DNA of 48,350 bases from a virus. Positions 3,369 to 39,256 of this stretch are shown in pieces (the stretch's first letter is position 1; every line of letters starts with the position of its first letter). Position numbers and translations under genes: made by a program. Under the pieces are notes generated by a model that was not told the origin of the DNA, did not search any database, and saw only the letters and a list, made by a program, of their open reading frames with translations. Location: positions 1 through 48,350 of IMG/VR virus record IMGVR_UViG_3300028553_000043; one strand, written 5' to 3'.

Positions 3369-4095
3369 GTTGTAATTTATTAAATAGCAATTCACACTTA
3401 GACCTGTTAGAACTTAAAGGTCTCGGAAGATGACAATCTATATATTCACTAATATTATAATCTGATGTAGGCCAGGTTGCTTTATCTAGTCTTTTTGTAG
3501 CATATTTCTCCTCTATCCAGCCCCTTTCAAGATGTTTAATAGTGACCGACTTGTTTACCTGTGCTTGATTGTAGAAAAATTTCTGATCAGTACCGGACTT
3601 TAAATTCATGTTCATTAATTTTTTCAAAAAATGTTTATGATCAGGTTGATTTAACTCAAGCATTTCTATAAAACTTAATGGATCGCCAGCCAAATAACAC
3701 ATAGGATATTGTGGATTAGTTTTATACCATCTGTATTTAATTATATCAGAACTGTATGAAATAATTCCGCTATCAGATTGTTGTGCTGCGCCATCAACAT
3801 AATATGACCTGGCGATTGGCAGCATATCCAGGTCTGATATAATAAAAGGTGCATCCAATAATCTAGCTGCCCAGAATCTAATACACTGTGCCTGTTGTGC
3901 AATACTCCATTCAGGTATCGACTGTAAATAAAATACAGTACCGTGTTCTTTTAGTGAACCACCTGGCTCAGAACTGTCTATGTACATGAGTACAGGTTCA
4001 AAGCCTATTCTTTTCCAGGCACGAGCAACATACGGCCAAAAATCTAAATATTCCGGGTTTGAGTTTGAGCTGACAACTGCGTATTTTAATTCCAT
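3361..4095 (-). CDS. Putative glycosyltransferase (GT-A type)
   Basis: This 244-aa protein carries FIISDLDMLP near residues 84-93, a well-formed DxD motif following a hydrophobic core strand. It is preceded by IAQQAQCIRFWAARLL, a helix typical of family 8/34-like enzymes that scan for a nucleotide sugar. A later GTDQKFFYNQA resembles the D-Q segment near the acceptor site in these families. It starts as TAATG with the stop of the upstream 445-aa gene. Of the short GT-like genes here it has the clearest donor-site motif. Substrate is unknown. Confidence 0.55.
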   Translation of the reverse strand: MELKYAVVSSNSNPEYLDFWPYVARAWKRIGFEPVLMYIDSSEPGGSLKEHGTVFYLQSIPEWSIAQQAQCIRFWAARLLDAPFIISDLDMLPIARSYYVDGAAQQSDSGIISYSSDIIKYRWYKTNPQYPMCYLAGDPLSFIEMLELNQPDHKHFLKKLMNMNLKSGTDQKFFYNQAQVNKSVTIKHLERGWIEEKYATKRLDKATWPTSDYNISEYIDCHLPRPLSSNRSKCELLFNKLQHG

Positions 4096-5432: not shown

Positions 5433-5444
5433 AGACAGGAGACC

Positions 5445-5476
5445 CTTTAAAAGCGTGAAACATCACGCTTTTAAAG
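5445..5476 (-). terminator. Intrinsic terminator-like hairpin, 13-bp perfect stem
   Basis: Arms 5445-5457 and 5464-5476 pair perfectly around a 6-nt loop. The hairpin sits 6 nt beyond the stop of the 68-aa gene. There is no long T-run after the stem on the minus strand; the A/T-rich foot of the stem supplies it. It may give only partial termination before the glycosyltransferase array. Confidence 0.7.
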
Positions 5477-5482
5477 ATTTGT

Positions 5483-5689
5483 TTAACAACCTGCTTCAGC
5501 TTGAAACGTGCTATGCTCTGGTGCTTGCTTTACTTCTTCGTTTACTTCAGCTGGCTTAGCTGGAACAAAAACTGAAATTGCTTCTGCAATAACTTTAGCA
5601 TCTTCTAAAGTGTATGCTCCTTTTGATTGTCCGATTCTAGCTGCTTGAATTAAAACAGAAAGTGCTTGATCTTGTGATAAGTTTGACAT
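5483..5689 (-). CDS. Small conserved-looking hypothetical protein, 68 aa
   Basis: The N-terminal 45 residues form two predicted amphipathic helices (MSNLSQDQALSVLIQAARIG and the following KGAYTLEDAKVIAEAISVF). A flexible Pro/Glu/Ala tail ends in Cys. The gene has its own A-rich leader and a strong hairpin right after its stop, so it is likely expressed separately and abundantly. No family is recognised. The helix-turn-helix-like spacing is not strong enough to call DNA binding. It could be a small virion or assembly protein. Confidence 0.6.
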   Translation of the reverse strand: MSNLSQDQALSVLIQAARIGQSKGAYTLEDAKVIAEAISVFVPAKPAEVNEEVKQAPEHSTFQAEAGC

Positions 5690-5721
5690 AATACTATTTT
5701 TATTTTATTTTTATATCTGTG

Positions 5722-8478
5722 TTATTTATTTTGTTTATGAAATTCTTTTATTTTTTCAATGACCATTTGGCCTGTAATTGATTTTGTACATTCAAAATGC
5801 CTTTCAGTATTCTTATGTTCAGGGCACCAGTTCCAGTCACCCGGATCAAACCAGTGTCGATTAAAGCAACCATTACATACTGATTTATTAATTATTCTTA
5901 TACAGTTCTGCATTTCTGCATAGTCTTCACTGAATCCTGAAATTAAAAAGACAGGTAGACCAGCTGCCCAGGCTAACCAACTTAAACCTGAACCTATGCC
6001 TATAAAATATTCACATTCAGCTATGTCATTGATAATATCTTGTAAATCACCAGTGAACTGTGTTGTACACTGTGGGTTTTTATTACCCATATAACCATCA
6101 GGCTCTCTTGAATATAAGACTACTTCATAGCCCTGGTCTTTTAAATAATCGGCAACCTCTTGCCAGCCGGTTGGATTATTCCAGTATTTGGCTTGTGCAG
6201 TTGAGTGTATACCTAAGCCGACTTTTTTCTTTTTAGTAATAGCTGGTAATTTAAGAAGCGGTTTAACTTCTTTATATTCTAATCCCAGTATATCTGAAGC
6301 TGTCTGTTGTAATGGTATCTTTTTAAAATCCTGTGGGTTTTTATTTAGATTTGGTTTCCGGTCCTCATTATACCAACCTATTCTAAATACGGCAAAAAGA
6401 TTTTCAACTTTAGAACCCTGTTCAATAAATTCCAGTTCAGGATATTGATCCCTGAAAATATCATTTAAGAATGTTGATATTAAAACTTTACAGTTGTGCT
6501 TTTTTCTAAACTCCTCGGCGTACGGGATCCATGCCAATGTATCACCAAGAGATTTAGAATCTAGTATTATAAGAACTCGTTTATCTTTAAATTCAAATAG
6601 TTCAGTGTGTATTATTTGGCCGTCTTTTCTAATCTCGGCTTTCACATCTCTGTAATAAGTTGAATTAAGCCTGGACCACATGCCTGATTTAATAGTTGAC
6701 ATGTATAAAATATTATCCGATTTGTCTTTAAATTGTATTTCAAAGTCATGCTGGTCTTCGCATTCAATTTCAATAGTAGGTCCTTCAATATAACTGGAAT
6801 GAATATAAATGGAATGGTCAGATCTAGTAGAATTTTGTGTATTGTTTTTTGAAAATGAATCTACACCCTCTTTGTCGATTGCCTGGTTATTTTTTAAAAT
6901 TTCAAAATCAATTTCCAGTATATTTTCTGGATTTTTAGCAAAATAATTATAAGTCTTAATCTCAAATATATTTTTATCTTCTTGATAAAAATGGGCGCGG
7001 TTTTTATAATATTCAAAATATTTTAGAAGAGTGTCTGTCTTGCCTAAGAAATAGCCAGTACAATATGAACAGTTTATGCCATCATAATAACCTGGGTTAT
7101 TTTCATAAAAAACTATATCATGTTCATCTAGATGTTTAATATTGATTTCTTGTGTTTGCTGATGTATAATATAGTCATAATTAATAATCTGAACTTTATT
7201 TTTACCTAGTGCTTTTACAAGTCTCAGACCGTTTTGTATTAATTTATAAACAGCATAACTATGTTCAAATTTAAAATACTCATTAACTATACGTTCGCCT
7301 TTATCATTTAACTTCCAGCTGAAAAACAAAACGTTATGTTTATTAAATTCCTCTAGGTAAAGTAGCGGATTGTCTTTATCATATAAAACCCAGTCACTGA
7401 GTTCCTGTTCATCTGTTTCAGCTGGATAATTAGTAGAAAGTATAACAGGCGTTCTAATAGATTTTAAACACTCTTTAAGTAAACCTTTTCTATATTCTGT
7501 GTTTGCATGGGACAGTACAATGGTTACAACATCATGCTCAACTGAACTACCAAAATGCTCAAGTAAAATATTCCTGTTGACTTGAATGTTATCAGTAATC
7601 AATATACTGCCTTCAGGTTTACATGTTTCCAGATTTCTCATGAATATGGGTAAACTATGTGACTGAGCCTCTTTGACAGCAAGTGGATTCAATTCAAAAA
7701 GGGATGGAAAATAAAAGACATCTGCTGCCTGATAAAAAAGATTTACATCTGACCTTTCACCGTGCCAAATACAATTGTCTGGAAAATCGGCCATGATTGG
7801 CTGCCAGTATTCTTTAAAATTATCTGCTTGGTTACCGACAAAATGAAAAATGATTTTATGCTTTCTTAAAAGTTTAGCCAGTTCAACTACGTGACCCTGA
7901 TTTTTACCAGGTGTAAATAGCCCAACGTGTAAAACATGCTTGTATTCAGGATCAAAATCTAAAAGTCTCTTGGCTTCATTTTTATCATACTTTACCCGTT
8001 CTATTGGATATTCCCAAATATCACAAGGTATACTGCCTTTAAAATGTTCACTAAATTTATTTTTACTCCATTCTGAAACAAGTATAAATTTATCTGCAAG
8101 ATATTTTAATGATGCTGGATTGGTAAAAGATGAATGCGTAGTACAGGTTATTTTATAGGATCTTTCTTGATTATAAATTCTGTCTAATATATCAGTGGCG
8201 ACAAAGGTCTCTGGCAACTCTTCAAAATGAATTACATCTGGACGAATCTGTTCTATGTAATCAAATACCTGATTTTTATCAGAACCTAAAGTGATTAACC
8301 TTTCGTTTAATAGATTCTTTATTTTAGTCCTTTGTATTATAAAAACCCCACCTGTAATATCATCCCATTCAATAACCCAGAACTCAGTTTCATTTGATAA
8401 TTTTTGTATCTTTTTAAATAAATACTGCGGCAAGCCTCCTGTAGAAAGATGAGGTGTAATGATTAGTACTTTATCCAT
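5722..8478 (-). CDS. Multidomain glycosyltransferase: GT4-like N-terminus and Aah/TibC-type O-heptosyltransferase C-terminus
   Basis: In this 918-aa protein, residues 1 to about 310 look like a GT-B family 4 glycosyltransferase: LIITPHLSTGGLPQY at the N-terminus, HVLHVGLFTPGKNQGH near 185, and SLFELNPLAVKEAQSHSLPI, the donor-site E-x7-E motif region. Residues about 320-560 are a middle domain of unknown role. Residues about 575 to 918 follow the bacterial autotransporter heptosyltransferase pattern: a small all-beta domain, VLIILDSKSLGDTLAWIPYA, then a cysteine-rich finger CNGCFNRHWFDPGDWNWC with a further Cys (HFEC). That finger corresponds to the four-Cys iron site known in TibC. Those enzymes transfer heptose to Ser of strand-loop-strand repeats in adhesins. 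The gene lies directly downstream of a beta-solenoid-like fibre gene. Sugar and target remain inference. Confidence 0.75.
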   Translation of the reverse strand: MDKVLIITPHLSTGGLPQYLFKKIQKLSNETEFWVIEWDDITGGVFIIQRTKIKNLLNERLITLGSDKNQVFDYIEQIRPDVIHFEELPETFVATDILDRIYNQERSYKITCTTHSSFTNPASLKYLADKFILVSEWSKNKFSEHFKGSIPCDIWEYPIERVKYDKNEAKRLLDFDPEYKHVLHVGLFTPGKNQGHVVELAKLLRKHKIIFHFVGNQADNFKEYWQPIMADFPDNCIWHGERSDVNLFYQAADVFYFPSLFELNPLAVKEAQSHSLPIFMRNLETCKPEGSILITDNIQVNRNILLEHFGSSVEHDVVTIVLSHANTEYRKGLLKECLKSIRTPVILSTNYPAETDEQELSDWVLYDKDNPLLYLEEFNKHNVLFFSWKLNDKGERIVNEYFKFEHSYAVYKLIQNGLRLVKALGKNKVQIINYDYIIHQQTQEINIKHLDEHDIVFYENNPGYYDGINCSYCTGYFLGKTDTLLKYFEYYKNRAHFYQEDKNIFEIKTYNYFAKNPENILEIDFEILKNNQAIDKEGVDSFSKNNTQNSTRSDHSIYIHSSYIEGPTIEIECEDQHDFEIQFKDKSDNILYMSTIKSGMWSRLNSTYYRDVKAEIRKDGQIIHTELFEFKDKRVLIILDSKSLGDTLAWIPYAEEFRKKHNCKVLISTFLNDIFRDQYPELEFIEQGSKVENLFAVFRIGWYNEDRKPNLNKNPQDFKKIPLQQTASDILGLEYKEVKPLLKLPAITKKKKVGLGIHSTAQAKYWNNPTGWQEVADYLKDQGYEVVLYSREPDGYMGNKNPQCTTQFTGDLQDIINDIAECEYFIGIGSGLSWLAWAAGLPVFLISGFSEDYAEMQNCIRIINKSVCNGCFNRHWFDPGDWNWCPEHKNTERHFECTKSITGQMVIEKIKEFHKQNK

Positions 8479-11220: not shown

Positions 11221-11228
11221 TATATATT
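11221..11228 (-). promoter_or_regulatory. Putative late-promoter box AATATATA
   Basis: The box lies 18 nt upstream of the ATG at 11202, followed by an A-rich AAATAAAATAAAA leader. It overlaps the last codons of the collagen-like gene. Confidence 0.4.
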
Positions 11229-12432
11229 ATGCAAAGTTATAATAGTTAAAAAGCTTGCTGACGATTCCTTCACCTCCTGGTGTACCCTGTGCTCCGCTTG
11301 TTCCTGAAGTTCCATTTGTACCTGAAGCACCGCTTGAACCTGTACCACCGCTTGTTCCTGAAGTTCCATTTGTACCTGAAGCACCGCTTGAACCTGTACC
11401 ACCGCTTGTTCCTGAAGTTCCATTTGTACCTGAAGCACCGCTTGAACCTGTACCACCGCTTGTTCCTGAAGTTCCATTTGTACCAGCCTGAGTATACATT
11501 ACTTGTTGACTGGTAAAGATAACTGATGGAGTAGTAGGTGTAGCTGGTGTTGTTCCTGCAGGCAAGTACTCCAGTGATACATCAGTATCTTCTGTTTGCC
11601 ATATTAACTGAATATAATCACCGGCTAAAAGTTCAAGCATAAAGTTAAGAGCAAGAATTACTTGGCCTGATCCTCCTCCATGTTGGCCCGTGATTGTACA
11701 CTGACTACTGCTTTCCGGAATATCTGTTCCATTTTTACGGAACCACACGTTTACGTTTACATCATTATTTCCAACATTTATAAATTGAATTGAAAACTGT
11801 AGATTGTAAACTCCCGAGTATGCGTGAGTTATTTGGCTATTTGAAACAATACTTATTCCGTTTGAATCGGGATCAGTATTATTAAGTGTAATAGGATATG
11901 CAACTGTCGTGCTCGCTGCAGTTTGGCTTTCTGTTGACCAAAAAGATCCCCAATATCCTAATGCTCCACCTGCGCCTGTTGCACCTGAAGTTCCTGACGA
12001 ACCACTTGAACCTGAAGTACCGCTTGTTCCTGAAGTTCCATTTGTACCTGATTCACCGCTAGTTCCGCTTGAACCTGAAGTACCGCTTGTTCCTGAAGTT
12101 CCATTTGTACCTGATTCACCGCTTGAACCAGTACCACCGCTTGTTCCTGAAGTTCCTGATGAACCGGTTGCACCAGCAGTACCACTTGCACCGCTTGTAC
12201 CACTTGTACCTGCGCCACCCCCTGTGCCGCCTATTACTATTTGATAAAGATCATCTTCAGCATCATATTCAAGTTCAGTAAGATTTTTCTGATCTATTAT
12301 TAAAAAAGCGTTATTAAGTGTAATGACATTAGTAAAAAGACCGTCTGATGTTAACACAGGCTTTTCTAGCTGAAGATTTCTACTCAGCTTAATTATACCT
12401 GTTTTGCCATCATCTGACATGTTTTCAGCCAT
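11227..12432 (-). CDS. Collagen-like fibre protein with Thr/Ser Gly-X-Y triplets and a C1q-like middle domain
   Basis: The 401-aa protein has four parts. Residues 1-67 form an attachment-type domain. Residues about 68-156 are a first collagen-like run. A globular beta-rich domain spans about 158-317 ([20 protein letters not shown] start), with the feel of a C1q/TNF-like trimer head. A second collagen-like run spans about 318-385, before a short tail. The triplets are almost all G-T-S, G-S-S, G-A-S or G-T-N. Pro is essentially absent, so the usual imino-acid stabilisation of the triple helix is missing. The DNA repeats in 54-bp and 63-bp units. It is probably a trimeric tail or head fibre. Thr-rich collagens elsewhere are O-glycosylated, which is notable given the glycosyltransferase genes downstream. 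Confidence 0.8.
11294..11485 (-). repeat. 54-bp tandem repeat, three full copies plus a partial, in the second collagen run
   Basis: Copies begin at 11294, 11348, 11402 and 11456, exactly 54 nt apart and nearly identical. Each encodes six Gly-X-Y triplets. Near-identity at the DNA level implies recent expansion or active homogenisation by recombination. Confidence 0.9.
12005..12130 (-). repeat. 63-bp tandem repeat, two copies, in the first collagen run
   Basis: Copies at 12005-12067 and 12068-12130 are near-identical except for the last bases. Each encodes seven Gly-X-Y triplets. The unit length differs from the 54-bp unit of the second collagen run, so the two runs expanded separately. Confidence 0.8.
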
Positions 12433-16507: not shown

Positions 16508-16532
16508 ACACATTAGCTAAAGACTAATGTGT
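16508..16532 (-). ncRNA. Element right-end hairpin; probable 3' portion of the TnpB guide RNA region
   Basis: The 9-bp stem pairs 16508-16516 with 16524-16532, with loop 16517-16523. It overlaps the tnpB stop codon. In studied relatives the TnpB guide (omega/re) RNA is transcribed across the gene end into the right end, so this hairpin probably belongs to that scaffold, with the guide read from sequence beyond about 16500. Confidence 0.5.
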
Positions 16533-17714
16533 TTCCGGTGACTTTTGCACCTTCTTTTTGGACGTTTCACCGATTGCGCCAGTTAAAACTGGTCTTATTT
16601 CATCTCCACGTCTGTAATCGTTAGTCCCTAACGATATTTTAATTCCTTCTTTAAGGATATTTTTACTTGCATTAAAATCTCTATCTAATTTAGATTTACA
16701 AGATGGACAAGTCCATTCTCTTATGTCTAATTTTAGATTATTATTAATATATCCACAATTATTACATTGCTTGCTAGATGGGAAAAATCTATCAATTTTA
16801 ACAATCTTCTTATCGTTCCAGTTAGCTTTATATTCCAGCAAAGTAACAAATTTACCCCATGAAACATCAGATATATGTTTAGATAATTTATGATTTTTAA
16901 TCATTCCCTTGATGTTTAGATCTTCAAGATATATTACATCATATTTTTTTATTAATTCTGTGGACACTTTATGTAGGTTGTCTAAACGAGAATTGGTTAT
17001 CTTCTTGTGTAGTTTAGCTACTTTTAATTTTTGTTCTTTATATCTATTACTTCCTTTAACTTTTCTACTTAAATGTTGTTGATTTTCTTTTAATTTTTTA
17101 GCATAAGTTTTTGTAAATCTATTGTTTTTATATTTATAACCATCACTAGTTATGGCGAAATCTTTAATTCCCAAATCAATACCAACTTCTTTACCAGTCT
17201 TATCAAACTTCTTATGTTCTGTTTCAACAAGGATACTTACAAAGTATTCATTTTTAGGTGTTTTAGACAATGTACATTGTCTAATTTCCCCTTTGAATTT
17301 TCTATCTTGGATCATTTTGATAGGGTCTTTGAACTTTGGGATTATTAATTTACCATCTTTAACTTTAGTATATTGAGGAACACAGAAAGAATTACTATCA
17401 TGTTTAGATTTGAATCTAGGAAATTTAGTCCTTCCCTTAAAGAATCCATTATAGGAACCATCTAAACATTTAAGTGAATATTGAAGAGATTGGGAAGATA
17501 TTTCTTTTAACCACTTAAATTCTTCTAACTTTTTTAACTTGGTTAAAGAATTTGCGTTATCATAATAGTTTAGTGTTTGTTTATTAGTTTCATACTCAAC
17601 TTTACGCTCATTTAAATAATGATTATAGACAAATCTAACAGATCCAAAATGTTTATTGAGTAAAACAATCTGTTCTTCATTAGGTTTAATCTTATATTTA
17701 AACGACTTTAACAT
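16524..17714 (-). CDS. tnpB: TnpB RNA-guided nuclease, IS200/IS605 family
   Basis: The 396-aa protein starts with the family N-terminus (SFKYKIKPNEEQIVLLNKHF). It has the split RuvC active site intact: Asp 180 in VGIDLGIKDFA, Glu 264 in YLEDLNIKGM, and Asp 346 in LDRDFNASKN. Between the last two lie zinc-ribbon cysteines 317, 320, 336 and 339. Length and motifs match functional TnpB enzymes, the ancestors of Cas12, which cut DNA complementary to a guide copied from the element's right end. The frame is uninterrupted, so activity is plausible. In a phage it could maintain the element or target rival genomes. Confidence 0.92.
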   Translation of the reverse strand: MLKSFKYKIKPNEEQIVLLNKHFGSVRFVYNHYLNERKVEYETNKQTLNYYDNANSLTKLKKLEEFKWLKEISSQSLQYSLKCLDGSYNGFFKGRTKFPRFKSKHDSNSFCVPQYTKVKDGKLIIPKFKDPIKMIQDRKFKGEIRQCTLSKTPKNEYFVSILVETEHKKFDKTGKEVGIDLGIKDFAITSDGYKYKNNRFTKTYAKKLKENQQHLSRKVKGSNRYKEQKLKVAKLHKKITNSRLDNLHKVSTELIKKYDVIYLEDLNIKGMIKNHKLSKHISDVSWGKFVTLLEYKANWNDKKIVKIDRFFPSSKQCNNCGYINNNLKLDIREWTCPSCKSKLDRDFNASKNILKEGIKISLGTNDYRRGDEIRPVLTGAIGETSKKKVQKSPETH

Positions 17715-18488: not shown

Positions 18489-19127
18489 TTATATATTGAC
18501 TTCTCCAAATTGATCGACTATCATGTCTGCAACAAGTTGTTTAGCACGTCTTATTCTATTTTTAATAGTCTGTAACGGCAAATTGTATTTATCTGATATT
18601 TCACGATATTTCATGCCGTTTATCAAATTATCTTGCAGCACATCTCTGTACATGGGCTTTAGTTTCTGGATTGATTTAGTAGCACACTCGAACTGCTCAG
18701 ATAATAAAATATCTGCCTGTACATAATCTGACTCTATTTTCATTTCTTCATGGTCTTCGCTAACATTTCTGCTATTTGAAACTTTAATATCATCATTATC
18801 ATAAATTGCTTCAGAACCATTGTCATTGAAAAACGAAAGTGAAACTCTGGGATTTCTTTCCTTTTTAATCCATCTTAAACATTCGCGGTGTGCTATTGTA
18901 TATGACCAAGTTGAAGCTTGCCATCGTGGGTCATATTGTTCTATTTTAGTATAGATTTTAAGGAATGTATTAGCCAACAGGTCTTCGGTTACATCACTGT
19001 CTTTAACTATACCTCTAATATAATGTTTAAGCCCAGGTGTAAGCTTCTTGTGTAGCTTGGTAAATGAACTGTGGCTGCGAGTTGCTTGAAAATCAAGCAT
19101 GAGTGTTTTTGAAGTTTCTTTGTTCAT
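18489..19127 (-). CDS. ECF-type sigma factor
   Basis: The 212-aa protein has a sigma region 2-like segment (about residues 37-90, including DVTEDLLANTFLKIYTKIEQ followed by TWSYTIAHRECLRWIKKE). An acidic linker follows. The sigma region 4 helix-turn-helix lies at about 153-200 (YREISDKYNLPLQTIKNRIR). Length and two-domain layout match ECF sigma factors. A phage-encoded one would redirect host RNA polymerase, with T4 gp55 as the functional precedent for late genes. The AATATATA boxes in this window are candidate targets. Its own stop overlaps such a box serving the next gene. Confidence 0.85.
   Translation of the reverse strand: MNKETSKTLMLDFQATRSHSSFTKLHKKLTPGLKHYIRGIVKDSDVTEDLLANTFLKIYTKIEQYDPRWQASTWSYTIAHRECLRWIKKERNPRVSLSFFNDNGSEAIYDNDDIKVSNSRNVSEDHEEMKIESDYVQADILLSEQFECATKSIQKLKPMYRDVLQDNLINGMKYREISDKYNLPLQTIKNRIRRAKQLVADMIVDQFGEVNI
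18490..18497 (-). promoter_or_regulatory. Putative late-promoter box AATATATA
   Basis: The box lies 24 nt upstream of the ATG at 18465 and overlaps the last codons of the sigma-factor gene. A run of A residues follows before the start. Confidence 0.4.
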
Positions 19128-19193: not shown

Positions 19194-19745
19194 TTATTTA
19201 AAATCTTTTAGTAATTCCAGGGTATCTTTAACGTCAATTGGTGCAAGGTTCCAGTTATCACAGCACACATTTAAACGTTGCAGTTGCTTGATATTTGACT
19301 TAATATTAGAAGATAGGTGACCGTGAAAATGAAATTTGTCTAGCTTTTTACCAGGCCATTCTTCAAGAGGCCAGTGACAAAATACAACATTTTCATGGGT
19401 GTATATGGCATTTTCAAGTATGGCAAGATCTGCACCAGCTTCTTTAAGGTCAAGAAGGCTTTGATCGTGTTCTGCTATCATAAATAAAATTTCACCATTT
19501 AATTTATTATATATGATTTCAACATCATCACAGGTCCATGCAAAATTACCAAGATGAATAACTACGTCTTCATGATTAACTTTACTGTTCCATATATTGA
19601 CCATGGCTTCATTCATTTCTTCTGTGCTGCTAAACCCACGAGCAGTAGCCGATTTCTTTCTACCAAAAAAGGTATCACTGGTCACAAAAATTTTACCTTG
19701 TTGTTTTGGTAAATATCCAGTTGTATAATCTGTCTGTTGTTTCAT
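19194..19745 (-). CDS. Degenerate calcineurin-like phosphoesterase
   Basis: The 183-aa protein aligns by eye to the phage-type phosphoesterase pattern: first strand KIFVTSDTFFGRK, second VIHLGNFAW, third MIAEHD, then VVFCHWPLEEW and FHFHGHLSSN. Several expected metal ligands are changed. The His residues of SDTHFGH are Phe and Arg, the Asp of GDF is Asn, the Asn of GNHD is Glu, and the terminal GHxH has lost its last His. The fold is likely kept while two-metal catalysis is doubtful. It overlaps the upstream hydroxymethylase-like gene by 53 nt, so the pair is co-expressed. It may be a regulatory or binding subunit. Confidence 0.75.
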   Translation of the reverse strand: MKQQTDYTTGYLPKQQGKIFVTSDTFFGRKKSATARGFSSTEEMNEAMVNIWNSKVNHEDVVIHLGNFAWTCDDVEIIYNKLNGEILFMIAEHDQSLLDLKEAGADLAILENAIYTHENVVFCHWPLEEWPGKKLDKFHFHGHLSSNIKSNIKQLQRLNVCCDNWNLAPIDVKDTLELLKDFK

Positions 19746-20568
19746 AATTAATATTTTTAATGTCTACTGCTTCTATTAATTTATCTAACTCCGCCGTTGG
19801 CTTGCCATCTGGTTTAATAAAATTATTTACTATTTCAGGAAAGCCGGTAGGTTTAAAATCAGAAGATATCATTTCTTCGATTAGTTCAAAATGTCTTTCA
19901 TATACATGATAAGAATTGGCTATATGTGTAAATGAACCCAGTTCAAGTTCAGGATATTTATCCATCTTGAGCAATTTAAGCATTTGCATTTGCAAAAGAC
20001 AAAAGAAAGAAAAGTCTGTAGCTGTACCTAGTATTGCATCATTAGAGCGCATCTGTACTGTGAAGTTTAACTTATTGTCTCTTATATTAAAGACGCCATT
20101 CAGTGTACATATAAAGTCTTTATTACCGTAATACTGATAGTTTGGCTTATTAAAAAGCAAAATGGCCTGTCGTGTGTCTTTATCATGTATTAAAGAATTA
20201 TATGCCCATTGCCATTGTGTTAAACCACCTTCACATACTTCATTGAAAATCAAATTACCATAAGCAGAATTTACTGTTCTGTCGTCATTTGCTATTTGAT
20301 TCCAGAATGGTGCAAATCTACTAATGAAACCCAGGTCACGTCGTCCTGAAAAGTAATAAACAGTTTCAGCTGCAATGTATTTAAGCTGACTGGATCTTTT
20401 TTCATTTTCATAAAGACACAGTACTGGGTTCTCGACAACATGTACAACATTCATGCTTTCATTTATCTTTAATCCCCTGGGAGATACACTATATTCTGGG
20501 TTTCTAATTAAGTCTGTAAGCGAAGCTTTGTAAACTTCAGCAAACGAATTACCCTTGTATAATTTCAT
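19693..20568 (-). CDS. Thymidylate synthase/dCMP hydroxymethylase family protein (copy A)
   Basis: The 291-aa protein follows the thymidylate synthase fold. The catalytic Cys is at about 154 (DFICTLNGVFNIRDNKL), the phosphate-binding Arg at 174 (MRSNDAILG), and the following helix starts TDFSFFCLLQ. In thymidylate synthase the position after LGxPF is Asn, which reads uracil; here Asp 185 takes that place. The same Asn-to-Asp change occurs in T4 dCMP hydroxymethylase and favours cytosine. I therefore read it as a pyrimidine hydroxymethylase-type enzyme, probably on dCMP. It overlaps its upstream neighbour by 20 nt. A second paralogue lies one gene upstream. Confidence 0.75.
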   Translation of the reverse strand: MKLYKGNSFAEVYKASLTDLIRNPEYSVSPRGLKINESMNVVHVVENPVLCLYENEKRSSQLKYIAAETVYYFSGRRDLGFISRFAPFWNQIANDDRTVNSAYGNLIFNEVCEGGLTQWQWAYNSLIHDKDTRQAILLFNKPNYQYYGNKDFICTLNGVFNIRDNKLNFTVQMRSNDAILGTATDFSFFCLLQMQMLKLLKMDKYPELELGSFTHIANSYHVYERHFELIEEMISSDFKPTGFPEIVNNFIKPDGKPTAELDKLIEAVDIKNINYETTDRLYNWIFTKTTR

Positions 20569-21367
20569 CGATTGAGTTTTTAAATAATGTTATTAAAGAA
20601 AGTTTATCATTTCTCTCTTTTACCAGGCTTTTAAAATCACGGTCTGATATTGTATCTTTCATATAAAACGGAAAGGTATTACAACACATATAAATTAAAT
20701 AGTTATTCATGACAGTTGACCAGTTTATATCAAGTGTAGAATTTGACTTATATCCTTTAATAAAATGTTTTATCATGTCAAGCTTTCTATGTTCATAAAA
20801 CATGTCAGATATAAAAGAACCAATTTCAATACTTATATCATCAATGGCTGCAAAATCAAAATCTATAAGATTGAAAGTCTTGCCGTCAAAGAGTATATTA
20901 CGTAATTTCAAATCTCTGTGTACTGGTATAAGAAGATGTGAAGTATCATAAAGATCTAGTTTTTTTATAATCTTTACCCTTTGTTTAAACGCTTCATTTT
21001 TTAATGGGCTACTTTCAATATCTTCCCAATGACCCATTGCAAAGACCCTGTTCTTTGTAGGTAAATTTATTTTATCAACATGTTCAGCACAGAAATTATG
21101 TAATTTAGCAGTATATTCACCTAGCTGTCTTATTGCATTGTCATCAATGCATACTTCTATTTCGGGTAGATACTCATATCTGAGATGGCATTCAATTCCG
21201 TCTGTTGTAATTTTAATAGGCTTACAAATATTAAAACTATCAGTCAGATTATTGCTTAGGTATGTTTGAAAAACAAAACTTCTTAAATCTATATTACTGT
21301 CTTTTATTTTTGTAAAAAAATATTTGCCATCTTTACAGATGGTTTTGTAATAATTTGTATCTTTCAT
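20549..21367 (-). CDS. APH/choline-kinase-type small-molecule phosphotransferase
   Basis: The 272-aa protein has the aminoglycoside phosphotransferase-like catalytic core: VHRDLKLRNILF (His 150, Asp 152, Asn 157; the Brenner motif H-x-D-x4-N) and NLIDFDFA (Asp 169, the metal-binding equivalent of DFG). The N-lobe is shorter and weaker than usual. Such kinases phosphorylate hydroxyl groups on small molecules. It lies between the two hydroxymethylase-like genes with no intergenic gap, suggesting it may act on a hydroxymethylated nucleotide or its derivative. It is not an obvious antibiotic-resistance enzyme in this setting. Confidence 0.8.
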   Translation of the reverse strand: MKDTNYYKTICKDGKYFFTKIKDSNIDLRSFVFQTYLSNNLTDSFNICKPIKITTDGIECHLRYEYLPEIEVCIDDNAIRQLGEYTAKLHNFCAEHVDKINLPTKNRVFAMGHWEDIESSPLKNEAFKQRVKIIKKLDLYDTSHLLIPVHRDLKLRNILFDGKTFNLIDFDFAAIDDISIEIGSFISDMFYEHRKLDMIKHFIKGYKSNSTLDINWSTVMNNYLIYMCCNTFPFYMKDTISDRDFKSLVKERNDKLSLITLFKNSIDEIIQG

Positions 21368-21368
21368 A

Positions 21369-22271
21369 TTAAAACGTTGTTAATTTATTAGCCCACTCAT
21401 AGAAAAAAGGCGATAAGAATTGATTGGCATCAGGTTTTACTATATCATTATATGTACTAATAACACCGCTGTCTATATCATCAACTTCTCTTGCTTTAAA
21501 AACCTGATCGACGTGATAGTATAATGTACCCATTTCTCTTACATATTGATTGTATGTTAATGTACCCATTTCAGGTTCTTTGGTATTATATTCTGTAAAC
21601 TCCTGTGGCCAAACCGGTCCTTTTATACTATCAAAATAGTGCAAAGAGGTTGTCTTATAAAGAAATGTACCTAATTTGAGGTCAGGATATTTTTCTAAAA
21701 GCCAGCCATACATTATTTCTTGAACTACTGTATAGAAATAAATATCATTTACAAAGCCTACTGATATTTCAGTGCCTCGTGTTTCAGCAATCATGTGCAG
21801 TTCATCATTTCTGATAATAAAATGAGCATAAATCATGCAAGGTGCATGCAGCACTGGTCGCCTTGTACCCAGGTCCAGTATAGCTTTTCTGGTGTACTTA
21901 TCACTTTCAAGTAAATTCTTAATTCTATAAAGTGACCATCTGCTAAAAGCCTGGCGCATTTCATTCCCAAAGAAAAAGATATTTTTACTATTGCCCATTG
22001 TCTTCTCAAGCATTTCTTTTGAATGCATGACACGTGGCTGGTTTTCATTAAGGATGTCAAATGTCTCCTGTAAAATGAAATTGTGTTTAAAGCTTGGAAT
22101 AGGTACTACTCTGTCTTTGATATTTTTGATTAACACTGCAACATTTAAAGCCTCTTTGGTTAATTCATTTCTGCTTGTTACCCTTGAACCATCAGTAGCA
22201 ATAACCTCTTTGAAATAGGAGTATGCTTGCATTGCATTTTCGACCTCTCTGTATTTAAGTGATATATTCAT
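21369..22271 (-). CDS. Thymidylate synthase/dCMP hydroxymethylase family protein (copy B), divergent
   Basis: I start at ATG 22271, giving 300 aa and a clean gap after the upstream stop. The longer reading intrudes into the amidinotransferase gene. APCMIYAHFIIRNDELHM carries the putative catalytic Cys 145. ETRGTEISVGFVNDIYFY follows, with Arg 165 and Asp 176 in the position of the thymidylate synthase uracil-reading Asn. Sequence similarity to copy A is low apart from the core and YPDLKLGTFLYKT, which parallels YPELELGSFTHIA in copy A. The two may form a heteromer or act on different pyrimidines. Identity of the substrate is not decidable by eye. Confidence 0.65.
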   Translation of the reverse strand: MNISLKYREVENAMQAYSYFKEVIATDGSRVTSRNELTKEALNVAVLIKNIKDRVVPIPSFKHNFILQETFDILNENQPRVMHSKEMLEKTMGNSKNIFFFGNEMRQAFSRWSLYRIKNLLESDKYTRKAILDLGTRRPVLHAPCMIYAHFIIRNDELHMIAETRGTEISVGFVNDIYFYTVVQEIMYGWLLEKYPDLKLGTFLYKTTSLHYFDSIKGPVWPQEFTEYNTKEPEMGTLTYNQYVREMGTLYYHVDQVFKAREVDDIDSGVISTYNDIVKPDANQFLSPFFYEWANKLTTF

Positions 22272-22296
22272 ATTAGATATTTTTATACTTGTCTGT

Positions 22297-23190
22297 TTAT
22301 TTCTTAGATCTTTTAATAGGCAGTGTACAACATGCAGCACAACCTCCCATCTTACCTAATTCATACATTGGCGTCGTATGTACAGTTATACCATGTGCTT
22401 CATAAATTGCTTTTGTTATTGGATTACCTTCTGGCATAATTATTTCATTTGGTCCCAGTGTAACAATATTCATAGCATAACCATTTACGACCTCATCTGT
22501 TTCGTCTAGAATAATAGTATTTTTAAAGCCTAAATCATGTTTTATAATAGACTTACGCTGTATGATTGTGTCTTTTGATATTATATGTGCACCTCCAAGA
22601 ATATGTTGCGGGATACCTTCAGGAGCGGCCTCAACTACATTGACTTTGATATTTGGGTAAAAGAATTTAAAAATATTAACAAAGTCTTGACTTGTTCTAT
22701 TACCAACTGAAATTAAAACTTCAGATTTTGAAAGCCAGAAAAAATCAGCGCCTTCCATGTTTACAGTGTTTGCTAATTCAATAATACGACCAGTATAACC
22801 CCAGTGTCTTAATAATTCAAGAAGATTTTTTTCTTCACCCTTTCTGATATCATATTTAGGATTAGCAAGTATAATTGAGTCTGGCATTATGACTGCCAGG
22901 TCCCTCATATAAACTTGATTTGGAAAAGAACGCATTTCAGTTTCATGAAAATATAAATCATCATAGACTTGAACACCTAATGAAATAAGCTTTGTTCTAT
23001 ATGCATCAACTTCTTCCAATAATTTTTCATAATTAGGAATGCTTTTATACATGGCTTTTTTAGGATCCGTGTATTCAATTTCATTTCTACGTGGAATATG
23101 TAGCATTGCTGACTCTAATTTGTCATATTCGTTTGAATAGCCAAATTCAAATTTTAAGTCAACATCTTCTGTTTCTGTTTTTATACCCAT
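22297..23190 (-). CDS. Arginine deiminase/amidinotransferase superfamily enzyme
   Basis: The 297-aa protein has the guanidino-modifying enzyme layout: an N-terminal strand LESAMLHIPRRNEIEY, PNQVYMRDLAVIM near 90-102, MEGADFF with Glu 146, PQHILGGAHIISKDT with His 196, and a C-terminal GGCAACCTLP whose Cys 287 takes the place of the nucleophile in GGxxHCxTxP. A Cys-His-Glu triad is therefore intact. Family members hydrolyse arginine or transfer its amidino group to an amine. It overlaps the upstream sulfotransferase by 10 nt. In a phage nucleotide operon it may create a guanidino group on a modified base or precursor, which is inference. Confidence 0.8.
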   Translation of the reverse strand: MGIKTETEDVDLKFEFGYSNEYDKLESAMLHIPRRNEIEYTDPKKAMYKSIPNYEKLLEEVDAYRTKLISLGVQVYDDLYFHETEMRSFPNQVYMRDLAVIMPDSIILANPKYDIRKGEEKNLLELLRHWGYTGRIIELANTVNMEGADFFWLSKSEVLISVGNRTSQDFVNIFKFFYPNIKVNVVEAAPEGIPQHILGGAHIISKDTIIQRKSIIKHDLGFKNTIILDETDEVVNGYAMNIVTLGPNEIIMPEGNPITKAIYEAHGITVHTTPMYELGKMGGCAACCTLPIKRSKK

Positions 23191-24395
23191 GTTTCAGGCT
23201 CCATTTTGTAAGTTAAATTATTCATCAATTCTTTTACGTCACTTCTCTGAGAAAGTTCATCAATTAAAGCACGTCTTTTCAGCCAACGATACTTGTCTGG
23301 CTTTTCTGATGCCATAACTATAGGAAGATTGTCGGCATTGATTTGACCTATTCCAAGATACTCTGTAATTTTATTTACAGTCTGTTGCGGATCTGTTAAA
23401 AAATCTTCAAATCTTACATGTAACATGTCTTTGCCGGAGTTTAAGATATGAGTATGCGCAGACCGCCACTGATTCAAGCAAACCTCGTGCAAAGGTGCAT
23501 TAATATATTCTTGCCAGTTTGGCGGTAAATCAAACTTCCACCATTTTTTACCATAGGCTTTAACATCTGAATAATTTTTAATGTTTAGTTCAATATTATT
23601 CAAGGTAACGTCATGTGCAAAAAAGCCAGTATCTGAAAGCCAGCCATCCATGAGCCCGTTAATGGTTTGTGCAAAACCTCTGGTCAAGTGAATATATTTT
23701 ATTTCTGCATTTGGAAATAATTCTTCAAAGACGCCTATTCTGTAACAGTCCTGTGGTGTTTTAAAAATAAGAACTTTATTAATATCACTTTCACTGAACT
23801 GTTGACGTAATGGTGGTATTACAAAAGGAGGCTCTTCAATTTTAAATCGCTGATCAGCAAAGTCATGTGAACCTATACAGATATCAAAAAGACTGGCCTT
23901 TTCTTTAAATAAAGTGAAAAGCAATTTCTGTGATGCTTCTTCATAATCTAAACCTTCACTGTAGAATTTATAAACGTATTTTGGCAAAACATAGTCAATA
24001 ACCTCATCGCTGATATCTGGAAATTGTAAAAGAATTCTATTGCGCCAATCTTTTAAAATTTTTGAAAGATTAAATACTCGATCATTTATACCAAGGTCAT
24101 CGAATATGTTATCTAAAAGTAGCTGTTTGTTTTTAACTGTGCTAAATGCATCACTATCACTTGACCAAGGAAAACCATTACTGGACAAAATATAGAAAGG
24201 CTCCTCTTCTCCTGAAAGATATGCAACATCATTGCTTCTAGACACAACCGTCTTCATTAAACTTGAACCTGATCTTGAACCTGTTAAGATAACTGCAACT
24301 CGCTTTATCTTCTTATTTAAGTCTCCTGTCGGCTGTATGCGTCGTAATGAATTAACGCGCTTTATAATTTCTTTATAGTCTTTTTTTAAACTCAT
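23181..24395 (-). CDS. Sulfotransferase-like protein
   Basis: The 404-aa protein carries VAVILTGSRSGSSLMK (residues 33-48), the PAPS 5'-phosphosulfate-binding loop of sulfotransferases. Much further on lies MLHVRFEDFLTDPQQTVNKI followed by TEYLGI, the classical C-terminal signature (R-x-E-D-L-x-x-D-P). The middle contains IKYIHLTRGFAQTINGLM, matching the 3'-phosphate-binding strand-helix with its conserved Arg. The architecture is complete. Acceptors for this superfamily range over glycans, peptides and small hydroxyl compounds. It overlaps both neighbours (4 and 10 nt), so it is firmly part of the operon. Confidence 0.85.
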   Translation of the reverse strand: MSLKKDYKEIIKRVNSLRRIQPTGDLNKKIKRVAVILTGSRSGSSLMKTVVSRSNDVAYLSGEEEPFYILSSNGFPWSSDSDAFSTVKNKQLLLDNIFDDLGINDRVFNLSKILKDWRNRILLQFPDISDEVIDYVLPKYVYKFYSEGLDYEEASQKLLFTLFKEKASLFDICIGSHDFADQRFKIEEPPFVIPPLRQQFSESDINKVLIFKTPQDCYRIGVFEELFPNAEIKYIHLTRGFAQTINGLMDGWLSDTGFFAHDVTLNNIELNIKNYSDVKAYGKKWWKFDLPPNWQEYINAPLHEVCLNQWRSAHTHILNSGKDMLHVRFEDFLTDPQQTVNKITEYLGIGQINADNLPIVMASEKPDKYRWLKRRALIDELSQRSDVKELMNNLTYKMEPETWV

Positions 24396-24892
24396 TGAAG
24401 TGATTTAATAAATTCATTAAGGCCAAAAGCATGTTCATCAGTTATTAAACAATCTCCTGACAAAACTATTCTATGGCAAATAAAGCTTTGTATCACATCC
24501 TCATAGCGCTCTTTATGTTTTTGTATTTCGTGACCCTCTTTTGTGTTTCTATTATTTAATTTAGTCACAGGTGCATCTATATAAACAACTGCTTTATTGA
24601 TATGTGATTTAATAACGCGTAAAAGCTCAGCTGAATAGTTAGCATCTTCAGTATAGACAACATCTGTTAATCCTCTATCCCAAAGTATTGGAATTTTATA
24701 ATCATTGAGCTGATCCATGCGTTCTATAATATTATGCATCCAGAAATTATATTCTTGCCATCTTGATTGCATACCAACATTAACAGCGCCTGATCCTTTG
24801 AATCGGACGGCGCTGTTATTGTATTGCTGGATATATTTGTTGATAAGTGTAGTTTTTCCGACAGCCGAGACTCCCTCAATAAAAATAATCAT
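24392..24892 (-). CDS. P-loop deoxynucleotide kinase-like protein
   Basis: The 166-aa protein opens MIIFIEGVSAVGKTTLINKY, with a Walker A at residues 7-14. It includes PILWDRGLTDVVYTED, resembling the DR(G/F) element of thymidylate kinase-like enzymes, and AVVYIDAPVTKLNNR, similar to their third strand. It is short for a thymidylate kinase (about 205 aa) and for T4 gp1. It may phosphorylate an unusual dNMP, as T4 gp1 does for hydroxymethyl-dCMP. It is the first enzyme gene of the operon and is coupled to the sulfotransferase by ATGA. Confidence 0.65.
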   Translation of the reverse strand: MIIFIEGVSAVGKTTLINKYIQQYNNSAVRFKGSGAVNVGMQSRWQEYNFWMHNIIERMDQLNDYKIPILWDRGLTDVVYTEDANYSAELLRVIKSHINKAVVYIDAPVTKLNNRNTKEGHEIQKHKERYEDVIQSFICHRIVLSGDCLITDEHAFGLNEFIKSLQ

Positions 24893-36823: not shown

Positions 36824-39256
36824 CTAAATTATGTCGTAAATGTCGTAGTAGATATTACCGTCTTTGTCCTTGGTCGTCTTTTCAAGTTCAGCTTCCATGG
36901 CATCATACAGGTCTTCGTCTATGATATCAAGTATCTCTTCGACAAAGTCTGAATAGTCAACTGTTGCAAAAAATTCAGTGGCTGAAACACAGGTCATAAC
37001 ATGATCGTCATGTCCCATTTGCCCCATGTATAAACCTGCTGTAGTTCTACCAAATGAACTCAGCTCATTGACTGTCATATCATCTGTTATAAACATTCTA
37101 TTTTGCTCAATTGATTTTTTAAGATTTTGACAGAGTATGGGTTTATTATCACGTTTAATTTTAAGACCGAACTTAGTATTTCTGGCATCATGCCTGTGTT
37201 TAAATTTTACAACCATTTCCTCGTCAAATTCATTTCGCTGAGGAAAGACTGTAGCTAAGTGATTGATGACAGTTGAGCCATAGGTATTATATTCAATTAC
37301 AATTTTGATGTTCTCCTGATAGAAGACATCTATTACCAATGTATATAAAATTTTTGATAAATCCTCTACACTGTGTTCATTGCTTCTAAAAACAATTGCC
37401 TGTTTTAGTGCAAAGAACTCATTAATAGAACTCGGTGTCAAGATTCTATTAAAGTCTTTCTTTTGCATGGGTACTATTTCAAAAATATTGATTACACTGT
37501 AGTCACCTCCTACGCCTTCTGCAATATCTATACAAAAGACCCAGTATCTATTACGATCTTTAAAATCGGCGTCAACATAATCAGGACTGAAAACCATAAA
37601 TCTTGACACGTCAATTGAAATTCTTTCAAACTCTTCAAATTCAACAAATGTAAATTTCTTTTGTCCTGTTCTCAGTTTTTTAATTGAAGCACCTGTAAGT
37701 AGAAGATTGCTGGAAGCCATGAACTGGTTTCCATACTGTCTATTAAACGCCTCTTCGCTACCGAGATTTTTAACCTCCTGTAATTTCCATTTTTCATCAC
37801 GACCAGGTACCTGCCACCAGTCGACGCGATAAGGTGAAAATTCATTGAGTTTCTTTTCAGCGCCATCATAGATCTCAAAGAATTTATTATAGCCGTTAGG
37901 TGTACTGGTAATTATAATACGTGATACCTTTGAAGATGAAAGCGTTGGATAAACGTTTTCATAAAAACTATTTATAAAGCTATGATGTATATGAGCAAAC
38001 TCATCCAGGAAAAGAAGATGTATAGTAAAACCAATACCTGCTTTACCTGTTGTAGATTGACCAACCATTCGACAGCCATTATCGAATTTCATGTTCATGA
38101 CATCATTCTTTAAAATACCTGGCTTTAAAAAGAAAGGTAAATTTTCTATAATGGCTTTTACTTTATCAAGAATTTCCTTGGTTGTACCGCCCTTATTTGA
38201 AAGTAGAAGTGCATTTTTATCAAAATTAAAAAGCAGATACCAGGAAATAAAGATTGCAGAACAAATAGTGTTATGCGATAATATGCCATTACTATAAAAT
38301 CTATGATTTTCATCATCAACAGTAACATCAAACATTGATATTGAATGTTGACCTTTTTCAATATGAGTAACTGCCTCGACACCATTTACAGTATGTATAA
38401 AATCACCAGGCTTTAAATCTCTAATAAATGTATCAACAAGACCTTGTTTAAATACTATATGATTATCTGCAGCATTTAGATAAAGACCAGATGCGGTTCT
38501 AATATTCCAGTTTACATAAGGCTGCGTGACATGAAGATGACTCATGGGCTTGAAACCAGAATCAGTCATAACTTCATAGCCCTGTAAATTATATGAACTT
38601 AATATTTTCTTACTGATGTCATCTTGGTCAAGACTAAAATGCCTGTATTCAATTTTTTCAACAGTCTGAATAAGAAAAAGTAAAATATTTATTAATAATT
38701 CATAAATTTTATTTAGACGAGAATGGGCTCGATACAAATGGTATTTAATACGGTTGATTAATCGATTGGCAAATGGTAGTTCGGCATTCTTGACCATTAA
38801 GTACCAGAGCTCGTACATTTTAATCATGTATTCTCGACCTTCTTTTCTTATATATATATCTGTATCGTGTGCCAGGCATTTGCCGATTTGTCGAGACGCC
38901 AAACATACATTAAACCTGTTCTCTACAAAGCTAACCAACATGCCCTTTTGATAGTCTCTCAGTTTGATTCGCTGAAGACCTTCGTCTGTCATAACAGTTG
39001 CAAAATGCTCAGCAAAGTATAGAATATCAGAAGCGCATCGTTTGATATGCTCCATTTCCTCATCTGTATATTCAAATACAATATTAGCACGCTTATAGCT
39101 CATGTTACCCTCGTAAAAAGGTGTACCCTTGACTTTATAACCCTCGTCAAGTGCTGCTATAATTCGCTGAACCTCGGCCGTCGACCAGACTACTCTGTCC
39201 TGCTGTTCTGTTTCAGGTTCAGAATTAAAAGATGTAGGTAAAAAATCATTCGTCAT
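36824..39256 (-). CDS. terL: Large terminase subunit (T4 gp17-like) interrupted by an intein
   Basis: The precursor is 810 aa; removing the 203-aa intein leaves 607 aa, very close to T4 gp17 (610 aa). The Walker A loop SRQIGK|T (residues 121-126 plus Thr 330) is split by the intein. Walker B is LLFLDEFA with Asp 418/Glu 419. The coupling motif is STPNG near 451. The RNase H-like nuclease carries Asp 577 in FCIDIAEG, a Glu in IVIEYNT and an Asp in MGHDDHVM. It pumps DNA into proheads and cuts it to length. It overlaps the small-subunit gene by 11 nt. The packaging motor cannot form until splicing restores the ATP-binding loop. Confidence 0.95.
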   Translation of the reverse strand: MTNDFLPTSFNSEPETEQQDRVVWSTAEVQRIIAALDEGYKVKGTPFYEGNMSYKRANIVFEYTDEEMEHIKRCASDILYFAEHFATVMTDEGLQRIKLRDYQKGMLVSFVENRFNVCLASRQIGKCLAHDTDIYIRKEGREYMIKMYELWYLMVKNAELPFANRLINRIKYHLYRAHSRLNKIYELLINILLFLIQTVEKIEYRHFSLDQDDISKKILSSYNLQGYEVMTDSGFKPMSHLHVTQPYVNWNIRTASGLYLNAADNHIVFKQGLVDTFIRDLKPGDFIHTVNGVEAVTHIEKGQHSISMFDVTVDDENHRFYSNGILSHNTICSAIFISWYLLFNFDKNALLLSNKGGTTKEILDKVKAIIENLPFFLKPGILKNDVMNMKFDNGCRMVGQSTTGKAGIGFTIHLLFLDEFAHIHHSFINSFYENVYPTLSSSKVSRIIITSTPNGYNKFFEIYDGAEKKLNEFSPYRVDWWQVPGRDEKWKLQEVKNLGSEEAFNRQYGNQFMASSNLLLTGASIKKLRTGQKKFTFVEFEEFERISIDVSRFMVFSPDYVDADFKDRNRYWVFCIDIAEGVGGDYSVINIFEIVPMQKKDFNRILTPSSINEFFALKQAIVFRSNEHSVEDLSKILYTLVIDVFYQENIKIVIEYNTYGSTVINHLATVFPQRNEFDEEMVVKFKHRHDARNTKFGLKIKRDNKPILCQNLKKSIEQNRMFITDDMTVNELSSFGRTTAGLYMGQMGHDDHVMTCVSATEFFATVDYSDFVEEILDIIDEDLYDAMEAELEKTTKDKDGNIYYDIYDII
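38270..38878 (-). other. Intein, 203 aa, inserted in the terminase Walker A motif
   Basis: Residues 127-329 of the precursor. The first residue is Cys (CLAHDTDIYI, block A). Block B is NAADNHIVF, with the usual Thr-x-x-His changed to Ala-x-x-His. Blocks F and G read VTVDDENHRFYSNGILSHN. The terminal Asn is preceded by His, and the +1 residue is Thr. The middle (about residues 150-215) is helical with no LAGLIDADG or HNH motif, so it is a mini-intein with no active homing nuclease visible. Splicing should rejoin GK and T exactly. Confidence 0.92.

Follow-up and report, generated by a model that had tools for sequence, protein, structure and literature searches.

We analyzed a seven-gene operon in the IMG/VR viral record IMGVR_UViG_3300028553_000043, which was taken whole as a stretch of 48,350 nucleotides (a 48 kb fragment, hereafter the window). 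Five of the genes encode a P-loop deoxynucleoside monophosphate (dNMP)-kinase-like protein (NMPK), a sulfotransferase (SULF), an enzyme of the arginine deiminase (ADI)/amidinotransferase superfamily (AMT), a divergent protein of the thymidylate synthase (TS) fold (TS2) and a small-molecule kinase (APH). They are followed by a predicted deoxycytidine monophosphate (dCMP) 5-hydroxymethylase (TS1) and a phosphoesterase. We consider it likely, from the sequences compared here, that the operon encodes a pathway for hypermodifying DNA by way of 5-hydroxymethylcytosine. The best explanation overall, which we favor with some confidence, is that an arginine-derived and probably sulfated group is joined to 5-hydroxymethyl-dCMP before polymerization. 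An initial annotation, made from the letters of the window alone, had proposed a new nucleotide hypermodification pathway and left the modified base open. At the pathway level this proposal gained support from co-inheritance of the genes, from their replacement by a glucosyltransferase in a huge phage and from amino acid:DNA transferase (ADDT) neighbors in other phages. Several of its details had to be revised, and the modified base is now narrowed, probably, to cytosine.

Six more viral contigs from metagenomes show the order NMPK-SULF-AMT-TS2-APH as far as each contig extends. Two of them (L001 and L002) continue with TS1, and their proteins are 47-79% identical to those of the window; the phosphoesterase is next after TS1 in L002, and the L001 contig stops after TS1. 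The 151 kb contig L026 keeps all six genes in sequence, interrupted by extra genes on both sides of AMT (after SULF and before TS2). At about 26-53% identity, L017 and L018 carry NMPK-SULF-AMT-TS2-APH, and L016, which begins at AMT, carries AMT-TS2-APH. Independent contigs share this order even where identity falls to 26-50%, which is more than chance. TS2 was accompanied by AMT and APH in all seven contigs in which it was found, with APH directly downstream of it each time (7/7). NMPK is the first gene of the module (39-70% identity among the module relatives) and goes with the five genes, not with TS1. The conserved unit is these five genes, and TS1 adjoins it in four contigs. Comparative genomics, which the initial annotation had named as a check on its reading, showed that the genes are co-inherited. 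AMT, SULF, APH and NMPK had zero matches in 50,697 phage records, and the module has no cultured-phage relative in that collection.

All seven open reading frames (ORFs) lie on the minus strand where they had been placed initially, contain no internal stops and belong to the families first assigned to them, as borne out by Pfam and PHROG searches. Read 5' to 3', the gaps between successive genes are -4, -10, +25, +1, -20 and -53 bp; the +25 gap assumes that TS2 starts at the ATG at 22271, which is common to its relatives, and not at the GTG at 22340. Family searches also found genes for a contractile-tail sheath, a clamp loader and a terminase of the T4 type, which mark the window as a genome fragment from a contractile-tailed phage.

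Two of the related contigs have additional genes within the cassette. In L001 there are two additional ORFs between cassette genes (L001:7348-8208 and L001:10892-11626), homing-endonuclease-like by eye. In L026 (L026:11404-15934), SULF and AMT are separated by a nucleoside deoxyribosyltransferase-like gene, and AMT and TS2 by genes for a gp23-type capsid protein, a PRTase-like protein, a 2H-phosphoesterase (Acb1-like) and a MazG-like protein. We counted the occurrence of the MazG-type and deoxyribosyltransferase-like genes within the cassette region in favor of DNA modification.

TS1 (19693..20568, minus strand, 291 aa; PF00303 5e-16) is very probably a dCMP 5-hydroxymethylase. Its best relatives in the PDB are MilA (4e-24) and the dCMP hydroxymethylase gp42 of phage T4 (1e-18). 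Taking the signature positions from two structure papers (PMC5175136, PMC6400193), we found that TS1 has all the residues expected of a dCMP hydroxymethylase, for cytosine over uracil and for deoxyribose over ribose. The catalytic Cys154 and Glu68 (C148 and E60 in T4) are invariant in four homologs, as is Asp185 at the cytosine-reading position (D179 in T4). Ser175 and Arg133 are the deoxyribose-type residues (S169 and R123 in T4) and not the Ala and Lys of MilA, whose sugar preference was reversed by exchange of these residues (PMC5175136, PMC6400193). Asp177, which contacts the pterin, His221 and Tyr223 complete the signature. Both TS homologs had been noted to carry Asp in place of the uracil-reading Asn; these residues (D185 in TS1 and D199 in TS2) proved invariant in all aligned relatives.

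The closest phage homolog of TS1 (54% identity) is found in the 462 kb huge phage LR756500, which keeps the order guanylate kinase (GMPK), TS1, phosphoesterase and sigma factor, homologous to genes of the window. In the place of the five-gene module, the LR756500 neighborhood contains a T4-type beta-glucosyltransferase (PF09198, 6.7e-23), an NTP-transferase-like protein and others, and no match to SULF, AMT, APH or NMPK was found in this phage. The beta-glucosyltransferase, present in LR756500, was not found in the window and eight other contigs, all of which are incomplete. The common TS1 neighborhood, together with the exchange of five genes for a glucosyltransferase, points to a swappable module that decorates 5-hydroxymethylcytosine. 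Read most simply, these gene orders mean that both phages would obtain 5-hydroxymethyl-dCMP from TS1 and decorate it with different modules. The phosphoesterase (19194..19745, minus strand, 183 aa; degenerate calcineurin-type, PHROG 547 7e-30) does belong to the gene run, as described initially, but is not specific to the module. We rejected it as a pathway member because LR756500, which lacks the module, has a homolog of it close to TS1 and the sigma gene; it is probably an old neighbor of TS1. A Sir2-family gene adjoins the beta-glucosyltransferase of LR756500 (L124:10836-11531).

The second TS homolog, TS2 (21369..22271, minus strand), has 300 aa counted from the conserved ATG; the residue numbers used here follow the 323-aa ORF. 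Its family is supported by PHROG 5131 (5e-10), and the Pfam match reaches only 0.024. The nucleophile Cys168, Glu92, Arg188 and the cytosine-reading Asp199 are kept in all seven homologs. The pterin-contact Asp (D171 in T4 and D169 in E. coli TS; PMC6400193) is not kept, being Glu191 or Ala in all TS2 homologs, and the deoxyribose Ser position is Gly. The Ile-Trp segment that contacts p-aminobenzoate and the Ser-X-Tyr near the base amine are absent in the alignment, in a region that aligns and models poorly. With its folate contacts changed or missing, TS2 is unlikely to be a second hydroxymethylase. Of the two hydroxymethylases named initially, TS1 stands as such, and TS2 is probably a repurposed paralog: a Cys-dependent enzyme acting on a cytosine nucleotide without the usual use of folate. 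A role of TS2 in forming a C-N bond is possible, though doubtful. The weak TS2 model was used to confirm the fold only. A Foldseek search with it returned the TS fold, with MilA first (2e-9) and with 9iqu and 9iqc, the TS-fold dCMP hydroxylase of phage HY126, at ranks 2 and 6. We also considered the TS of an Acinetobacter phage as the solved HY126 hydroxylase and dropped it, as the PDB matches at the threshold used were only T4-type enzymes.

SULF (23181..24395, minus strand, 404 aa) matches Sulfotransfer_3 (PF13469, 3.1e-9) at 37.8 bits against a cut-off of 27, as a sulfotransferase of the type that uses 3'-phosphoadenosine-5'-phosphosulfate (PAPS). Its phosphosulfate loop, SRSGSS, and the region of R239 are conserved in nine viral homologs. 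Arg239 is invariant; the eighth position after it, which in many sulfotransferases is a 3'-phosphate-binding Ser, is Gly247.

For AMT (22297..23190, minus strand, 297 aa; PF02274 3.5e-17), the profile search placed DDAH first (6e-22, nearly full length), followed by ADI, ArgZ/AgrE and, more weakly, AGAT. The NCBIfam matches were to hydrolases only, all far below the cut-off. The AlphaFold model, with a predicted local distance difference test score (pLDDT) of 86, matched ADI first (Z 32) and then SxtG, HsvA, ArgZ, AGAT, StrB1 and DDAH (Z 25-29). We did not name an activity from the fold, since transferases and hydrolases score close together. The catalytic triad reported earlier (Cys287, His196 and Glu146) is intact, and Asp97, Arg116 and Asp149 are likewise invariant in nine homologs. 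Two residues past the catalytic His, AMT has a Leu where ADI has the catalytic Asp D280 (mutated in PDB 2abr). The original label of amidinotransferase was right as to the superfamily, but AMT could not be separated from the hydrolases: it may be a deiminase, a dihydrolase or a transferase, and its sequence leans towards the hydrolases (DDAH, ADI and ArgZ).

The pairing of SULF with an enzyme of guanidino chemistry extends to bacteria, where the relatives of SULF form two groups. Group I (40-48% identity to SULF) occurs mainly in Oxalobacteraceae and relatives and in some candidate-phylum genomes, and an arginase-family gene lies directly downstream of SULF in 43 out of 43 testable loci. Group II (about 30% identity) occurs in many phyla, and 12 out of 16 loci have an AMT-family gene in that position. 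For the two groups combined, SULF has a guanidino-enzyme partner in 55 of the 59 testable bacterial loci. Some group II loci also contain CysD- and CysNC-type genes, including an adenylylsulfate (APS) kinase domain, a second sulfotransferase, B12-radical SAM proteins and methyltransferases; sulfate-activation genes beside a chromosomal SULF-AMT pair fit PAPS-dependent sulfation. In the viral contigs SULF-AMT is the rule; in L027, the one contig that lacks an ADI-family match, an arginase-family gene takes the place of AMT. Ornithine can be released from arginine by arginase, arginine dihydrolase and amidinotransferase alike, and we offer as a hypothesis that this shared product is what counts in the pairing. 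In the tree all phage SULFs fell with the arginase-linked group I (support 100/100); the tree does not resolve how the phage groups are related, so we draw no direction of transfer from it.

The bacterial pairs come in two sets of loci. The SULF-arginase loci (L059-L102, 44 loci; for instance L062:9297-15772) come from Oxalobacteraceae, Sphaerotilaceae, Comamonadaceae and some candidate-phylum genomes. Frequent neighbors in them are a methyltransferase, an NMT1/THI5-like binding protein and sensor-type genes; the loci seem to be an undescribed small-molecule system, perhaps one whose product is sensed. The second set (L103-L118; for instance L107:6490-15605 and L116:3753-11724) combines SULF with an ADI-family gene, a second sulfotransferase, B12-radical SAM, methyltransferases and CysD/CysNC, and is scattered over many phyla, including Salinispora. 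In L116 a DNA gyrase B-like protein is fused in frame with a methyltransferase domain, a possible self-resistance target.

A direct link of SULF to DNA modification comes from three further viral contigs (L025, L027 and L028) in which ADDT (PF18724) lies directly beside SULF. L025 and L028 have SULF and ADDT (with or without AMT), and L027 has SULF, ADDT and arginase. The L027 contig also encodes two HMUDK_hel proteins, a weak match to a 5-hydroxymethyl-deoxyuridine (5-hmdU) DNA kinase, a MazG protein and a TS homolog with Asn at the base-reading position; by this gene content, the set is one for 5-hmdU thymidine hypermodification. Neither the window nor the module contigs that were searched, all of them fragments, gave a match to ADDT or to HMUDK_hel (PF18723). 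ADDT on the one hand and APH plus TS2 on the other may be alternative attachment devices, working on DNA and on nucleotides, respectively. Attachment on nucleotides would explain the fixed dNMP-kinase-like gene in the phages of the TS2 type.

The two kinases of the module have distinct predicted roles. APH (20549..21367, minus strand, 272 aa; PF01636 1e-9) is an APH/choline-kinase/thiamine-kinase-like small-molecule kinase in which the motif HRD...DFD, pointed out initially, is present and conserved. Its nearest NCBIfam family is thiamine kinase (1.5e-7, well below the family cut-off), and it is predicted to phosphorylate a primary alcohol. NMPK (24392..24892, minus strand, 166 aa; PHROG 761 thymidylate kinase, E 5e-8) is predicted to phosphorylate a modified dCMP.

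From the gene set, its conservation, the active-site residues, the exchange of the module and the co-occurrence with ADDT, each of which was tested, we infer the reactions, their order and the identity of the attached group. To provide the handle, TS1 would turn dCMP into 5-hydroxymethyl-dCMP with methylene-tetrahydrofolate, as T4 gp42 does. The substrate of AMT would be arginine or an adduct derived from it, attacked at the guanidino group, and its product most likely ornithine or citrulline; SULF would move sulfate from PAPS onto the arginine-derived group or its conjugate. Attachment would take place before replication: APH would phosphorylate the 5-hydroxymethyl group, creating a leaving group, Cys168 of TS2 would open an exocyclic methylene at C5 of the cytosine, and the amine of the arginine-derived group would add to it. 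NMPK would then phosphorylate the modified nucleotide towards the deoxynucleoside triphosphate. Where 5-hmdU phages have related SULF/AMT or SULF/arginase genes, attachment would instead be made on DNA, by ADDT. Whether the attached group is derived from arginine seems to us evenly balanced, and sulfation of the final base has an equal chance of being right. In its most specific form (a sulfated, arginine-derived, for instance ornithine-like, cytosine side chain made at the nucleotide level, with a TS paralog joining the amine to the activated 5-methylene in place of the ADDT route) the scheme is rather unlikely to hold in every part.

Several observations weigh against the proposed pathway. 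In the short contigs L016-L018 the only match to the TS1 profile is TS2 itself. The alignment of the TS2 folate region is uncertain and the AlphaFold model is weak (pLDDT 61, low at 98-130), and the product would be a different one if AMT should be a transferase. Other modification genes may lie outside the 48 kb fragment that forms the window. In addition, bacterial chromosomes in which no DNA-modification gene was recognized also encode SULF and its partner, which can make a free small molecule there. The phage operon might similarly make a sulfated arginine-derived nucleoside or amino acid, resembling mildiomycin, that acts on the host or competitors and does not enter DNA. The chromosomal SULF-arginase and SULF-AMT clusters beside methyltransferase, B12-radical SAM and sensor-type genes would fit such a product, as would the presence of MilA, a nucleoside-antibiotic enzyme, among the best solved relatives of both TS1 and TS2. 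We regard it as improbable, however, because the sugar-reading Ser and Arg of TS1 prefer deoxyribose, a dNMP-kinase-like gene is always first in the module, a beta-glucosyltransferase takes the module's place in LR756500 and ADDT stands beside SULF in other phages.

The lack of a second TS1-type gene in the contigs L016-L018, along with glycosyltransferase genes elsewhere in the window that suggest surface-sugar work, could also mean that two pathways share one operon, a T4-like 5-hydroxymethylcytosine pathway (TS1 and NMPK) and an unrelated one for host metabolism or surface sulfation (SULF, AMT, APH and TS2). This is unlikely given that TS2 keeps the residues for a cytosine nucleotide, that NMPK travels with the five genes and that SULF co-occurs with ADDT elsewhere. 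A different role for TS2, as a flavin-dependent dCMP 5-hydroxylase like that of HY126, would make the handle 5-hydroxycytosine, or would mean that both handles are made, for APH, SULF and AMT to decorate. The ranks of 9iqu and 9iqc and the loss of folate contacts speak for it, and HY126 shows that a TS fold can serve a chemistry other than that of a hydroxymethylase, but the Foldseek match rests on a common fold and a weak model and the sequence profile of TS2 matches MilA and TS instead; we think this role quite improbable. That TS1 and TS2 are both TS-family proteins with Asp would also suit an ordinary hydroxymethylcytosine pathway in which each hydroxymethylates its own substrate and the remaining genes are cargo that has no part in it. 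Such a pathway is highly improbable in view of the gene order kept across distant contigs, the altered folate residues of TS2 and the rule that SULF has a guanidino-enzyme partner in bacteria.

Compared with known systems, the proposed nucleotide-level pathway is closest in its first step to the T4 5-hydroxymethylcytosine pathway: TS1 is like gp42 in fold, catalytic residues and specificity residues, a dNMP-kinase-like gene is present (T4 has the dNMP kinase gp1), and the locus relative LR756500 has the T4-type beta-glucosyltransferase. Unlike T4, the module contigs have SULF, AMT, TS2 and APH, and no beta-type glucosyltransferase was found in them. With thymidine hypermodification (5-hmdU DNA kinase, HMUDK_hel and ADDT) the pathway would have in common that the handle is a hydroxymethylpyrimidine, that a kinase acts and that an amino group is probably transferred; three viral contigs also combine ADDT with related SULF and AMT or arginase genes. 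Here, by contrast, the predicted handle is cytosine, ADDT was not found, an APH-type kinase and TS2 stand for HMUDK, and the module probably acts on nucleotides and not on DNA. Mildiomycin biosynthesis also starts with a TS-family cytosine hydroxymethylase (the CMP 5-hydroxymethylase MilA), but TS1 has deoxy-preferring residues and no mildiomycin-type downstream gene was recognized. AMT has the fold and the Cys-His-Glu/Asp residues of the ADI/DDAH/ArgZ/amidinotransferase superfamily; it differs from ADI in the Leu for D280 and in its length (297 as against about 410 residues). The HY126 dCMP hydroxylase (9iqu, 9iqc) resembles TS2 in fold and as a TS fold acting on dCMP without hydroxymethylation, although the TS2 profile search gave no match to either structure.

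Whether phage DNA withstands restriction and CRISPR nucleases is decided by its hypermodifications, which also supply new nucleotide chemistry. If the proposed pathway is correct, sulfo and guanidino/ornithine chemistry would be added to cytosine modification, and a TS-fold enzyme would have a new reaction. The decoration of 5-hydroxymethylcytosine would then be a swappable cassette, with a beta-glucosyltransferase in one huge phage and five genes in others. In the literature searched we found no description that links a sulfotransferase to hypermodification in phages, though an earlier mention of these families in work on thymidine hypermodification is possible; as far as we found, arginine-related and sulfate-adding enzymes are new to DNA modification. 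The pair of a sulfotransferase and an arginase or ADI-family enzyme is a previously unnoticed one, common to phages and many bacterial genomes.

Other genes of the window surround the operon. Directly downstream of it on the minus strand, 18489-19127 encodes a sigma-70-family-like protein (regions 2 and 4) that is conserved in L002 and LR756500. Among the phage genes beside the operon there is an IS605-type TnpB (16524-17714, minus strand; OrfB, Cas12f1-like TNB domain, 1e-26), and no TnpB-like ORF lies at the matching place in L002. The terminase large subunit (36824-39256, minus strand, 810 aa) matches Terminase_6N from residue 330, leaving an unusually long N-terminal part. A protein with long collagen-like GTSGTSG repeats is encoded at 11227-12432 (minus strand), and L002 has a similar proline-rich antisense frame. 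A block of glycosyltransferase-like genes (1430-8478, minus strand) and a protein with MptE-like and sialyltransferase-PHROG matches (45819-46652) could possibly serve in surface or DNA sugar work.

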